Positions 12,196-57,740 of a stretch of 64,000 nt of DNA are shown one piece after another (positions within the stretch are counted from its first letter, which is position 1; each line of letters starts with the position of its first letter). The position numbers and the translations under genes were made by a program. Source of the DNA: Metabacillus sp. KUDC1714 (lineage in GTDB: Bacteria; Bacillota; Bacilli; Bacillales; Bacillaceae); NCBI RefSeq assembly GCF_014217835.1, contig NZ_CP055263.1, forward strand, positions 1,638,501 to 1,702,500. The letters run 5' to 3'. The notes under the pieces were generated by a model. That model had not been told where the DNA came from. It did no database searches and saw only the letters and a list, made by a program, of their open reading frames with translations.

Positions 12196-12287
12196 TATTG
12201 TCTGAAAATCCTGGTTTATTGTCCAGCTTACTTGCTATATTGTCCGAAACTGAAATATATCAGCCGAAATCAATGGGATATTGACCA
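12196..12287 (+). repeat. 21-bp-phased array, core TATTGTCC (array 1)
   Basis: Cores begin at 12196 (TATTGTCTG), 12217 (TATTGTCCA), 12238 (TATTGTCCG), 12259 (TATCAGCCG, degenerate) and 12279 (TATTGACCA). The spacing is 21, 21, 21 and 20 bases and the bases between cores are not conserved. It lies between the upp start region and the glyA terminator. Confidence 0.7.
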
Positions 12288-12310
12288 TTCGACATAAATA
12301 GACAATAAAA

Positions 12311-12350
12311 AACAGGGACTGGCTCACAAAATGTAAGTCAGTCCCTGTTG
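12311..12350 (-). terminator. Terminator after glyA
   Basis: AACAGGGACTG / CAGTCCCTGTT stem with an imperfect upper stem, followed on the minus strand by an A/T-rich run. It directly follows the glyA stop. Confidence 0.8.
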
Positions 12351-12356
12351 ATTATA

Positions 12357-13598
12357 TTATAGGTTTCTATATAAAGGGAATTTGCTTGTTAAGTCTTCTA
12401 CGCGTTGTTTTGCTTCAGCAAGCTTTGTTGCGTCCTCATGATTTTTCAATGCAAACGCAATGATGCTTCCGATTTCATCCATTTCTTCAACACCAAAGCC
12501 ACGGCTTGTTACAGCAGCAGTTCCAATACGAACACCACTTGTTACAAACGGACTTTCTGTTTCGAAAGGAATTGTGTTTTTATTAACTGTAACTCCGATT
12601 TCGTCTAATACATGCTCAGCAACTTTACCAGTTAATTGAAGTGAACGAACATCTACTAATAATAGGTGATTATCTGTACCACCTGAAACTAGTGTAAGAC
12701 CTTCTGATTGTAATTTTTCCGCTAAACGCTTCGCATTGTCAATGATGTTTTGTGCATATGTTTTAAAATCATCTTGAAGAGTTTCACCAAAAGATACTGC
12801 TTTTGCCGCAATTACATGCATAAGAGGTCCACCTTGGATACCAGGGAAGATTGATTTGTCAATTTTCTTACCAAATTCCTCTTTACATAAAATCATACCA
12901 CCACGTGGTCCACGAAGTGTTTTATGTGTTGTCGTTGTAACAAAATCAGCATATGGTACTGGATTTTGATGTAGTCCAGCAGCAACTAAACCAGCGATAT
13001 GAGCCATATCGACCATGAAATATGCGCCTACTTCATCAGCAATTTCACGGAATCGTTTAAAGTCAATTGCTCTTGGATAAGCACTTGCACCGGCAACAAT
13101 TAGCTTTGGCTTGTGAGTTCTTGCTTTTTCTAATACATCATCATAATTGATTAGATGTGTTTTTTCATCAACACCGTACTCAATGAAGTTGTATTGAACT
13201 CCACTAAAGTTTACCGGGCTACCATGTGTTAAGTGACCACCATGAGATAAATTCATTCCTAGAACCGTATCACCTTGCTCTAGAATTGTGAAATATACAC
13301 CCATGTTCGCTTGCGCACCTGAGTGAGGCTGAACATTTACATATTCTGCACCAAAGATTTCTTTCGCACGATCTCTTGCAATATCCTCTACTACGTCAAC
13401 ATGCTCACAGCCACCATAATAACGACGACCTGGATAACCTTCAGCATATTTATTCGTAAGAACGGATCCTTGCGCTTCCATGACAGCTTCACTTACAAAG
13501 TTTTCAGAAGCAATTAATTCAATCTTCGCTTCCTGACGAGTACGTTCAAGTTGGATGGCTTCAAATACCTTTGCATCTTGTTCTGGTAAATGTTTCAT
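12357..13598 (-). CDS. glyA: Serine hydroxymethyltransferase
   Basis: PLP enzyme interconverting serine and glycine with tetrahydrofolate, supplying one-carbon units (413 residues). The PLP lysine is Lys226 in TTTTHKTLRGPRGG, and SENFVSEAV and EGYPGRRYYGG are conserved N-terminal motifs. The open frame extends ten codons upstream, but the family start MKHLPEQD and the upstream GGGAG favour 13598. A promoter and paired PurBoxes upstream suggest purine control as in B. subtilis. Confidence 0.97.
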   Translation of the reverse strand: MKHLPEQDAKVFEAIQLERTRQEAKIELIASENFVSEAVMEAQGSVLTNKYAEGYPGRRYYGGCEHVDVVEDIARDRAKEIFGAEYVNVQPHSGAQANMGVYFTILEQGDTVLGMNLSHGGHLTHGSPVNFSGVQYNFIEYGVDEKTHLINYDDVLEKARTHKPKLIVAGASAYPRAIDFKRFREIADEVGAYFMVDMAHIAGLVAAGLHQNPVPYADFVTTTTHKTLRGPRGGMILCKEEFGKKIDKSIFPGIQGGPLMHVIAAKAVSFGETLQDDFKTYAQNIIDNAKRLAEKLQSEGLTLVSGGTDNHLLLVDVRSLQLTGKVAEHVLDEIGVTVNKNTIPFETESPFVTSGVRIGTAAVTSRGFGVEEMDEIGSIIAFALKNHEDATKLAEAKQRVEDLTSKFPLYRNL

Positions 13599-13678
13599 TT
13601 CGTTTGAATCTCCCTTCATTAAAAACACTAGTTATGGTTTTATCTGACACAGCTTTTTCAACGTCTATTTCCATCTAT

Positions 13679-55333: not shown

Positions 55334-56536
55334 TTGGCTATCTTCATTACCATATGTTTGATATTAGTGGCACTTATTTGTTGGTTCACAATCGACTATC
55401 ATCTTGGAAGAAGAGATCATCTTTCCAAATCCAAATATACTCAATATCCTTTGAGGAAAAGTGAGATTAACCTGTTTATCGACGGAGAAAAGCTATATGA
55501 GGACTTATTTGAGCGAATTAAAAATTGTCAACATAGCATTCATGTTTTATTTTTTATTGTAAAAAATGATGAGGTTAGTAACGAATTTCTTTCATTATTA
55601 GGTGAAAAGGCAATTCAAGGAATTGAAGTACGCCTATTACTTGATTATGTAGGATGCTTTAAGCTTAAAAAACACAAAATTAACGAACTAAAGGATAAAG
55701 GTGTTAACTTTGCCTATTCACACAAAGTAAAATTCCCTTATATTTTTTACACACTTCAAGCTAGAAATCATCGTAAAATAACTGTTATTGATGGGAAATT
55801 CGCCTATTTGGGAGGCTTTAATATTGCAAGAGAGTATATTGGGAAGGATCCTAAATTCGGTTATTGGAGAGATTATCATCTTAAAATTACTGGTACAGGG
55901 GTAAACGATTTACAAGAACAATTTTTTAAGGATTGGTATGATGCTACTGAGGAAGATAAACGTAAGGATACTCGTTATTTCCCTAGTCAGCCTGAGGGGA
56001 CAAAGACACATAAGTTCATTTCAACTTATGGCGAACATTTAAATGACCATTTTATTTCATTCATAAGAGATGCCCAACAGGAAATCATTATTTGCTCCCC
56101 CTATTTTATTCCAGGTAAAACAATACTTAATGAACTGTTAGCCGCAATCGCAAGAGGAGTAAACGTAAAAATTATGGTGCCGATGAAAGAAGATCATCCC
56201 CTTGTTCAGGAAGCCTCCTACCCTTACTTTGGCAAGCTTTTACTTGCAGGCTGTGAAATTTATCAATTTTACTATGGATTTTATCATTCGAAGTGCATCG
56301 TAATCGATGACCATCTTTGTGACATTGGAACAGCTAATTTTGATAAACGAAGCTTATATTTGAACGATGAAATGAATTGTTTAATCTTTGATCAAGAGTT
56401 TATCCAAATTGTTAAAAAACAAATCAGTGAAGATTTTCGTCGATCTGAGCTTTTAACCTATGAGGCTTATAAAAAGCGTTCCTATCTAAAACGAGGCAAA
56501 GAAGTATTTGCAACGATAATTTCTCACTTTTTATAA
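55334..56536 (+). CDS. clsB: Cardiolipin synthase ClsB-type phospholipase D family protein
   Basis: PLD-superfamily cardiolipin synthase (400 residues, YwjE). One N-terminal membrane helix (2-20) anchors two HKD motifs: NHRKITVIDG (His146, Lys148, Asp153) and HSKCIVIDD (His318, Lys320, Asp325), each followed by the Gly/Asn tail (GGFN and GTANF). The start is TTG at 55334 with AGGAGG eight bases upstream. It is divergent from fadF and 34 bases before uvsE. Confidence 0.92.
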   Translation: MAIFITICLILVALICWFTIDYHLGRRDHLSKSKYTQYPLRKSEINLFIDGEKLYEDLFERIKNCQHSIHVLFFIVKNDEVSNEFLSLLGEKAIQGIEVRLLLDYVGCFKLKKHKINELKDKGVNFAYSHKVKFPYIFYTLQARNHRKITVIDGKFAYLGGFNIAREYIGKDPKFGYWRDYHLKITGTGVNDLQEQFFKDWYDATEEDKRKDTRYFPSQPEGTKTHKFISTYGEHLNDHFISFIRDAQQEIIICSPYFIPGKTILNELLAAIARGVNVKIMVPMKEDHPLVQEASYPYFGKLLLAGCEIYQFYYGFYHSKCIVIDDHLCDIGTANFDKRSLYLNDEMNCLIFDQEFIQIVKKQISEDFRRSELLTYEAYKKRSYLKRGKEVFATIISHFL

Positions 56537-56570
56537 AGAGTCTCTTGATTAGTATACAAGGGGGAATTGG

Positions 56571-57527
56571 ATGATTATTCGATTTGGATATGTTTCACAT
56601 GCACTTTCTCTTTGGGATTGCTCTCCAGCAAAAGCATTAACGTTTACTCGCTGGAAAAAACTTGATGAAAACGAGAGAAAACAGCAGCTTCTTTATGTGA
56701 CGAGAAAAAATCTTGAGCACACGCTACGAATGATTCATTATAATATTGCTCAAGAAATTTATTTGTACCGCTTTTCATCATCGATTGTGCCGTTAGCAAC
56801 ACATCCTGAGGTGCTTTGGGATTACAGAACTCCTTTTAAGGATTTACTGTCTGAAATTGGACAACTTGTGAAAAAACATAAGCTTCGTACTAGTTTTCAT
56901 CCAAATCAATTTACACTGTTCACGAGTGATAAACCACATATCACTGACAATGCAGTTGGTGATATGGCATACCATTATGACGTTTTAGAGGCAATGGGAC
57001 TTGCGAATGAAGCGATTATTAATATCCATGTTGGTGGTGCATATGGAAACAAGCAGGCTGCAACCGAACGTTTTCACACCAATATTAAGCAACTCCCTGA
57101 TTATATTAAGAAGCGCATGACACTTGAAAACGATGATAAAACCTATACTGCAACAGAAACGTTAACAATTTGTCAAAAGGAGAGAATCCCTTTGCTTTTT
57201 GACTATCATCATTTTATGGCTAATAAAGAGGATGATGAGGCTGTTGAAGACTTATTACCTGACATTTTTAAAACATGGTCTTGGATTGGCATCCAGCCCA
57301 AAATTCATGTATCCTCACCTAAATCTGAAAAGGAATACAGAAGTCATGCCGACTATGTCGATGCTGAATTTTTGCTGCCTTTAGTGAAGGTGTTGAAGGA
57401 AATGAATGTGGATTTAGACTTTATGATTGAAGCAAAGCAAAAGGATAAAGCCGCTCTTAGACTTTGTGAGGATCTTAGCAAAATTAGAGGTGTAAAACGG
57501 GTTGGGGGTGCAACGATTGAGTGGTAG
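56571..57527 (+). CDS. uvsE: UV damage endonuclease UvsE
   Basis: UV-damage endonuclease (YwjD type, 318 residues) that nicks DNA 5' of pyrimidine dimers and other lesions. TIM-barrel metal ligands are suggested by FHPNQFTLF, INIHVGGAYGNKQAA, TLENDDKTYT, LLFDYHHFMAN and IHVSSP. GGGGGAATTGG precedes the ATG. It is probably cotranscribed with clsB. Array 5 follows before the argS terminator. Confidence 0.93.
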   Translation: MIIRFGYVSHALSLWDCSPAKALTFTRWKKLDENERKQQLLYVTRKNLEHTLRMIHYNIAQEIYLYRFSSSIVPLATHPEVLWDYRTPFKDLLSEIGQLVKKHKLRTSFHPNQFTLFTSDKPHITDNAVGDMAYHYDVLEAMGLANEAIINIHVGGAYGNKQAATERFHTNIKQLPDYIKKRMTLENDDKTYTATETLTICQKERIPLLFDYHHFMANKEDDEAVEDLLPDIFKTWSWIGIQPKIHVSSPKSEKEYRSHADYVDAEFLLPLVKVLKEMNVDLDFMIEAKQKDKAALRLCEDLSKIRGVKRVGGATIEW

Positions 57528-57545
57528 ATGCATAGAATTGGGGAG

Positions 57546-57740
57546 TTGCAAGATTATTTGGTTAAGTTGTAAAATTCCTCCTTGGATTTGCAAGATTATT
57601 TGGTCAAGTTGCAAAATTCCTCTTTATATTTGCAAAATTAGTCGCTAAGATTGCAAAATCACTCTTCTATCTTGCAAAACTAGTGGCTATTTTGCCAAAA
57701 TCCATCTTCATACTTGCAAAAATATTGACCAAGATTGCAA
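57546..57740 (+). repeat. 21-bp-phased array, core TTGCAA (array 5, longest)
   Basis: TTGCAA or one-base variants start at 57546, 57567 (TTGTAA), 57588, 57609, 57630, 57651, 57672, 57692 (TTGCCA), 57714 and 57735: ten units on a 21-base register. The flanks (TTGCAAGATT, TTGCAAAATT) are the reverse complement of those in arrays 3 and 4, so this array is inverted. It lies between the uvsE stop and the shared terminator. Confidence 0.88.

Follow-up and report, generated by a model that had tools for sequence, protein, structure and literature searches.

Tandem arrays of near-whole-turn period and changing core at gene ends of Metabacillus and its relatives: candidate rows of protein-binding sites

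REP/BIME-type repeats are dispersed, non-coding and variable in copy number, are mostly located at gene ends, and share long units or hairpins. Iterons and DnaA-box clusters are tandem sites of one protein about two helical turns apart, and are associated with replication origins or with individual loci. CRISPR repeats are near-identical, about 24-48 bp in length, and alternate with unique spacers of similar length. Here we describe tandem arrays of short cores, located between genes, in a 64 kb stretch of Metabacillus sp. KUDC1714 (contig NZ_CP055263.1, positions 1,638,501 to 1,702,500; referred to as the window), together with related arrays of other genomes. The arrays of the window are numbered A1-A5 (Table 1), and G and L numbers are our labels of genomes and loci.

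According to two papers, the binding of TTF1 to Sal boxes depends on orientation and termination by Pol I is polar (PMC11358750), mouse and human have different Sal-box words (PMC11358750, PMC10310618), and the Rap1 and dCas9 roadblocks are orientation-dependent, with roadblocks being suggested to cooperate with canonical termination (PMC10310618). We propose that the arrays described here are tandem sites for sequence-specific DNA-binding proteins, which may act as a polar roadblock or insulator; this reading is given a probability of about 0.4.

Period, unit and core conservation

The window was scanned in 42-base windows, and a start was counted at 30 or more of 42 matches. Fifty starts were found at lag 21, and none at lag 20 or lag 22. 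With triple-hexamer clusters, the array measure of the lag census, the window has five clusters at lag 21 and none at lags 19, 20, 22 and 23. These results agree with an earlier note on the stretch, which had claimed five intergenic 21-bp arrays in 64 kb: all five are present, with the cores ATTGTC (A1), GGTTCAA (A2) and TTGCAA (A3-A5). Five arrays in 64 kb are not explained by chance. A genome-wide search at 21 bp, also proposed in that note, was performed on the genome of the window (G000, 5.764 Mb). The pattern TTGCAA-N15-TTGCAA-N15-TTGCAA gave 24 forward matches at ten loci, and the reversed pattern, used as the control, gave none. The two-unit pattern gave six further scattered single pairs (control 0).

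The lag census covered 3.19 Mb, including the window, 40 loci of the genus at array places, and L407, a stretch positioned on a known array (one lag-21 cluster). Non-coding clusters were counted, and arrays inside a stop-free frame of at least 100 codons were dropped. The census gave 27 clusters at lag 21, six at lag 20 and 22 at lag 52, and, at multiples, 11 at lag 42 and five at lag 40. Lags 19, 22 and 23 gave none, and every other lag from 13 to 60 gave at most three. The window contributed five clusters at lag 21, and the 40 genus loci contributed 8, 4 and 8 at lags 21, 20 and 52, respectively; when these and L407 are subtracted, 13, 2 and 14 clusters remain. The 80 pyrG loci from other genera or phyla of Firmicutes (1.35 Mb), selected for pyrG rather than for arrays, contain 12 non-coding clusters at lag 21 and two at lag 20, with nearly all cores different. 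The sampled 800 kb of the relatives G003, G014 and G015 gave three non-coding clusters over all lags 14-42 and none at lag 21; after the frame filter, lags 20 and 21 both gave zero. G015 carries 52-bp arrays, though its sample shows nothing at lags 20 and 21, and G014 has a 21-bp array (L377:2469-2796, unit ATCGCGGATAGAGCACCCACA) that the filter removed, since a long frame without stops runs through it. Arrays likely lost to this filter are L037:9732, L038:9731, L043, L047, L059 and L377. The earlier note had named arrays confined to a single strain, with no excess at 21 bp over 20 or 22, as one outcome that would speak against it; arrays are present in many species, and lag 21 is in excess. 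In the TTGCAA chains, the spacing is 21 in 150 of 167 cases, 20 in 12, 19 in two and 41-42 in three, a count which includes orthologs and in which the chains of A5 and L343 are partly counted double. Units 20 or 21 bp apart are therefore located on one helix face.

The TTGCAA unit is AAAG-TTGCAA-RATT followed by six or seven free bases (48 units of G000 at 21-bp spacing). The motif spans about 14 bp, its core is near-invariant, and the spacer is free. Another 96 units from other genomes of the genus, partly orthologous, fit this motif. The second family of the genus is AAAGT-GGTTCAA-T-A (65 units), and the family of Neobacillus novalis is AAAA-TA-GMCAAAAC (51 units).

The conservation of arrays and flanks, another check suggested in the earlier note, was compared between G000 and the sister genome G012. 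Nine ortholog pairs were aligned, L109/L113 not being among them. Four pairs were omitted from the count: in L105/L114, L103/L116 and A5/L111 the arrays are grossly unlike between conserved flanks, and in L106/L115 the upstream gene is different. In the five colinear arrays, 2 of 144 core positions and 45 of 304 spacer positions are changed, and the 120-bp flanks, which are partly coding, are changed at 128 of 1151. In a neutral minisatellite, no position of the unit is more conserved than the rest, whereas here the core is. Finding orthologs by the core might bias these counts; for A3, A4 and L104, of which the ortholog was also reached via genes or flanks, the changes are 1/90 in the core versus 28/178 in the spacer (p = 9.6e-5). 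The ortholog of L104 has additional decayed cores outside the colinear part.

Within G000, 10 of 1028 spacer pairs from different loci agree at no fewer than 12 of 15 positions, and the shuffle mean is 9.2. The array units were thus rejected as copies of one dispersed element, the spacer likeness being no greater than in column shuffles. One relocation is real: A5 and L347:1219-1349, another locus in G012, have seven consecutive units in common, and the array was moved or copied. At the site corresponding to L347, G000 has 1.2 kb of different sequence, so that neither a clean empty site nor a target duplication can be read.

Position, polarity and change of core

The first reading of the window did not include the strand polarity, the location behind terminators, the exchange of cores at orthologous places, or the 20- and 52-bp forms. 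The TTGCAA loci of G000 are located in eight same-strand and two convergent gaps, and the N. novalis loci in 11 and two; neither set has a divergent gap. The core is on the strand of the upstream gene at 8 of 8 TTGCAA loci of G000, at 9 of 10 GGTTCAA loci (from four genomes, possibly including orthologs) and at 10 of 11 N. novalis loci. The three core families together give 27 of 29 same-strand arrays (p = 1.6e-6), a count that leaves out the TTGCAA loci of other genomes, which are partly orthologs. Open reading frames (ORFs) lying on the array were ignored in scoring L332 and L415. Convergent gaps cannot be scored, and the GGTTCAA loci L330, L339, L138 (convergent), L335 (one flank unknown) and L336 (called divergent) were left unscored. 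Among the TTGCAA loci of other genomes, 12 of 13 same-strand arrays agree with the upstream gene, L122 being the exception, and four gaps are called divergent (L342, L344, L345 and L347). On inspection, L342 is in the sense orientation after a short ORF and its terminator.

Half of the TTGCAA arrays of G000 start 17-34 nt beyond the terminator of the upstream gene. The distance from the start of the T-run to the array is 23 nt at L103, 34 nt at L105, 23 nt at L106 and 106 nt at L108; those of A3 and A4 are given in Table 1. In N. novalis, the last T-run is located 22-121 nt ahead of the array at 11 of 13 loci, and no T-run was called ahead of L419 and L422. One array of G012 is located behind the 6S RNA.

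TTGCAA triplets were found in 8 of 60 genomes searched, G000 included, and all eight belong to one genus; GGTTCAA triplets were found in 5 of 21 genomes of the genus. Several genomes with no TTGCAA have arrays of other cores. In the N. novalis genome (L037), AGMCAAAA triplets are present at 13 loci (control 0), and four other genomes gave none. Arrays past pyrG, as in A3, are seen at L031, L033, L037, L038 and L047. As a side observation, the 20-bp array L031:9772-10420, also past pyrG, follows units with a different core, and the word shifts along it from GCTCGTAAATT to CGAGCACAAAT; it is possibly a snapshot of a core switch.

At three orthologous gaps (ywlG, rpoE and pyrG), the core or the geometry differs between species among the 21 genomes of the genus. 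The gap between glyA and the TIGR01440 gene, which we take to be ywlG, contains arrays in 10 of 21 genomes by the strict scan, with five cores and three periods within one genus. The cores are GGTTCAA (G000) and TTCAACTTT (G001, G004, G011) at 21 bp, GATAAA (G006, G020) and CAAATA (G003, G019) at 20 bp, and CGGGACA (G007, G015) at 52 bp. Degenerate arrays were found in G012 and G005 by eye or by another scan, and G002 has a 52-bp array upstream of glyA, ywlG not being found on that piece. The remaining eight genomes show none or doubtful traces (G014). Within 600 bp upstream of rpoE, 21-bp TTGCAA arrays are present in G000, G012 and G016, and 52-bp arrays of ATGAAGAC in G002, G007 and G015; the other 15 of 21 have none of the periods 20, 21 and 52. 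Past pyrG, TTGCAA is present in G000 and G012 and a 21-bp array of GATAGATTT in G013, and 18 of 21 have none of these periods. The glyA-upp gap has 21-bp ATTGTC arrays in G000 and G012, and, by coordinates, a 52-bp array in G018. Single hits at lags 18 and 25 were obtained in G007, G015 and G006 in the comparison of the 21 genomes.

The 52-bp form is built differently. In nine 52-bp arrays of the genus, inverted cores are placed at fixed distances: 17/35 for ATGAACGACA, 18/34 for ATCGGGACA and its variant, and 16/36 for ATGAAGACC and ATGAAGGAC. L443, L045 and L065 show other distances. Arrays of 52 bp, mostly inverted core pairs, were observed at L354, L355, L363, L365, L366, L367 (G015), L404 (G013), L433, L434 and L436, and also in other genera (L045, L065). 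Several 52-bp cores occur within one genome, and the form represents a second geometry. The 20-bp GATAAA arrays were further observed in G000 and G012 (L104:13384-13449 and 14552-14597; L115:1529-1594), in the sense of the upstream gene. Viral contigs gave at least 120 stretches for TTGCAA and 30 for GGTTCAA; because the reversed control was not included, these matches decide nothing on phage iterons.

The features of the window are listed in Table 1. Flanking genes were identified by NCBIfam, and gene calls are longest-ORF heuristics. As the earlier note had stated, the arrays are outside coding DNA and near the ends of transcription units: none is inside a gene call of 90 aa or more, and each is downstream of at least one gene 3' end. 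An 81-aa ORF (13909-14154, + strand) overlaps A2 and is judged spurious. A2 is antisense to both ywlG and glyA. A1 is the weakest of the five, being degenerate beyond positions 12196-12244. By itself it would be marginal, yet its core recurs at lag 21 adjoining glyA in G012 and in another genus (L033). The ORF facing pyrG has no NCBIfam match, and the sense of A3 on the - strand is AAAG-TTGCAA-RATT. The arrays had no Rfam match at gathering scores.

Table 1. Arrays and adjoining hairpins in the window
Feature	Positions	Strand	Remarks
Array A1	12196..12244	-	Core TATTGTC (+) or GACAATA (-), in three exact copies; 21 bp; glyA-upp gap
Inverted repeat	12305..12355	-	Presumed terminator of glyA, separating it from A1
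Array A2	13964..14135	+	Core GGTTCAA; 21 bp and steps of 42 and 41; ywlG (TIGR01440)-glyA gap
Array A3	40903..41012	-	Core TTGCAA; steps 20, 21, 21, 21, 21; between pyrG and convergent ORF
pyrG terminator	41029..41062	-	T-run start 17 nt from A3
Array A4	43796..43885	-	Core TTGCAA; five 21-bp units; icmF-rpoE gap
icmF terminator	43911..43942	-	T-run start 26 nt from A4
Array A5	57542..57746	+	Core TTGCAA; 21/42 bp; uvsE-argS gap (convergent); in the sense of uvsE
Hairpin with T-run	57764..57797		Between A5 and argS; viewed from uvsE, A5 precedes it

Two further kinds of repeats were observed in the window. At 21447-21661, TGTGGATAA repeats and their inverse surround the start of a TsaC/YwlC-like gene, and they resemble a DnaA-box cluster. 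Dispersed GGGGACTGTCCCC palindromes are present at 22184-22411, 23159-23331, 51540-51576 and 52778-52847, one pair being inside a 99-bp tandem duplication.

Interpretation of the arrays

The core is common to loci with unrelated spacers, is kept during spacer drift, and is repeated at near-whole-turn spacing, which suggests a protein on DNA. The polarity and the position past terminators point to an action on transcription. Since the cores are unlike between relatives, we infer proteins of changing specificity. In the proposed mechanism, related DNA-binding proteins of fast-changing specificity would bind side by side as a helically phased row, and the bound row would stop the RNA polymerase that ran through the intrinsic terminator, as a polar roadblock or insulator. 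This mechanism is modelled on TTF-I at Sal boxes, which stops RNA polymerase I. A protein touching one helix face had already been suggested in the earlier note. The periods of 20-21 bp (about two turns) and 52 bp (five turns), the empty lags 19, 22 and 23, and the conservation of the core rather than the spacer agree with this suggestion.

Several points weigh against the roadblock reading. A binding protein was not found, though no search by association with gene presence was made. The polarity is also compatible with a role of RNA, and the 52-bp form has no polarity because its cores are inverted. A2, L122, L345 (short ORF) and L422 read against the upstream gene, and L344, L347 and L336 are in gaps called divergent. 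No terminator was called at L104, L107 and L109 of G000. A5 and L111 are located ahead of a shared terminator; A5 is before it from the uvsE side, and 24 nt past it from the argS side.

A general form of the proposal is more doubtful. Bacillaceae-type bacteria might have fast re-specifying paralogous DNA-binding proteins in helically phased rows at transcription-unit ends, where the place and the geometry (two turns direct or five turns inverted) would be selected, and the word would be rewritten genome-wide by lineage, as are the words of eukaryotic satellites and rDNA terminators. The rows would form a second, protein-based boundary layer behind intrinsic terminators. If true, this would be a bacterial boundary system at gene ends with fixed geometry and changing word, and it would show binding sites, and presumably their protein, changing in concert in bacteria. 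The insulation of adjacent or convergent genes where intrinsic terminators leak would become testable. Ordinary motif searches miss such arrays, since they look for a conserved word.

The arrays may instead be satellite DNA, namely minisatellites with no function for the host which grow and shrink by slippage or unequal exchange, or spread by unknown mobile means, and survive in the gene-end gaps where they do the least harm; we regard this as rather unlikely. Arrays quickly gain or lose length while their flanks are conserved (L105/L114, L103/L116, A5/L111), long near-identical runs are present in L031, L047 and L103, the units shared by A5 and L347 connect different loci and genomes, and few arrays of G000 are in divergent gaps, as with many harmless repeats. 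The core kept during spacer drift, the common core among unrelated spacers at loci of G000, the strand polarity, and the period of 20, 21 or 52 held across unrelated cores do not fit, and even in satellite DNA the near-whole-turn period across unrelated cores needs explaining. The replication-linked amplification considered in the earlier note suits the change of copy number (L105/L114), but does not suit the core conservation. That coding or decayed heptapeptide repeats (7 codons, 21 bp) account for the arrays is hardly credible. The period is a multiple of three, some frames give KVARFxx or KVDRFxx, and the ORF on A2 and the long stop-free frames over some arrays elsewhere would agree. In coding tandem repeats, however, the frame is kept and third positions are the most variable. 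In the KVARF frame, the third positions of two codons are invariant in 144 of 144 and that of a third codon in 140 of 144, and the K/R position varies; spacings of 20 and 19 occur in TTGCAA arrays, entire arrays have period 20, and the units of A5 and N. novalis, judged by eye, have stops in this frame. Coding heptads were rejected as a general account, given the invariant third positions and the steps which are not multiples of three. A separate observation is L059:1990-3000 of a Sporolactobacillus, where a long run of 21-bp repeats lies within a stop-free frame of 337 codons in a divergent gap; this may be a gene or an array.

A role at the RNA level, in which a read-through transcript offers repeated landing sites for an RNA-binding protein, a ribonuclease or a small RNA, appears improbable, although 27 of 29 scored loci are in the sense orientation. 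The landing sites proposed in the earlier note accord with this polarity and with the folds of A3 and A5, for which only 5 and 0 of 200 shuffles, respectively, were as good; such folding is expected, because TTGCAA pairs with itself. The folds of A4 and A2 do not stand out, and a common RNA structure was rejected, none being found among the four arrays folded. Unpaired RNA offers no evident reason for a spacing of 20-21 or 52, the cores of the 52-bp form are inverted, many arrays are located past the terminator, and the cores are unlike between relatives. Still less probable is a role in chromosome organisation, in which a protein of the nucleoid or of segregation would be drawn to the arrays in the origin half of the chromosome. 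All ten TTGCAA loci of G000 are within 1.01 Mb of dnaA, and all nine of G013 within 0.67 Mb (best DnaA match at 1,959,224 and 437, respectively). Uniform p-values for this clustering are not independent evidence, because the genomes share loci. GGTTCAA arrays extend to +1.52 Mb and L138 to +1.85 Mb, and the gene-end position and the polarity are not predicted by such a role.

Comparison with known systems

No description of such arrays was found in the open-access library searched, which does not include subscription journals. The architecture (fixed geometry, changing word, same places) looks like an undescribed one; the novelty rests on this architecture and on the literature search, and the function would be as proposed above. 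Like REP/BIME elements, the arrays are dispersed, non-coding, mostly at gene ends and variable in copy number. Unlike them, the arrays have nothing in common beyond a short core and a fixed geometry, and in G000 the spacers are unrelated between loci. A common hairpin was not seen in the four arrays folded, though the 52-bp form does contain inverted pairs. Like iterons and DnaA-box clusters, the arrays are tandem at about two helical turns, but they are located at many gene ends per genome. Compared with CRISPR repeats, the conserved part is about 14 bp, the free part is 6-7 bp and the period is 21.

The TAACTGA repeats of Beggiatoaceae, Cyanobacteria and Bacteroidetes are also short words repeated directly between genes, with an orientation relative to the genes and with no known binding protein (PMC4679880). 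They consist of one 7-bp word in head-to-tail repeats, most of which directly precede start codons (PMC4679880). The arrays have a period of 20-21 or 52 bp, free spacers, a location at gene 3' ends, and changing words. They do not end a few nucleotides before start codons as a rule: the TTGCAA arrays of G000 are in eight same-strand gaps and in two convergent gaps with no adjoining start codon.

The closest likeness in place and orientation is with Sal boxes bound by TTF-I and with the yeast Reb1/Rap1 roadblocks, which are sequence-specific gene-end sites where the bound protein stops RNA polymerase by orientation (PMC11358750, PMC10310618). A location past gene ends and a fixed orientation are likewise found at 27 of 29 same-strand loci of the three core families. 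The arrays differ from these sites in being bacterial, dispersed over many protein-coding gene ends and tandem at 20-21 bp, with several cores per genome.

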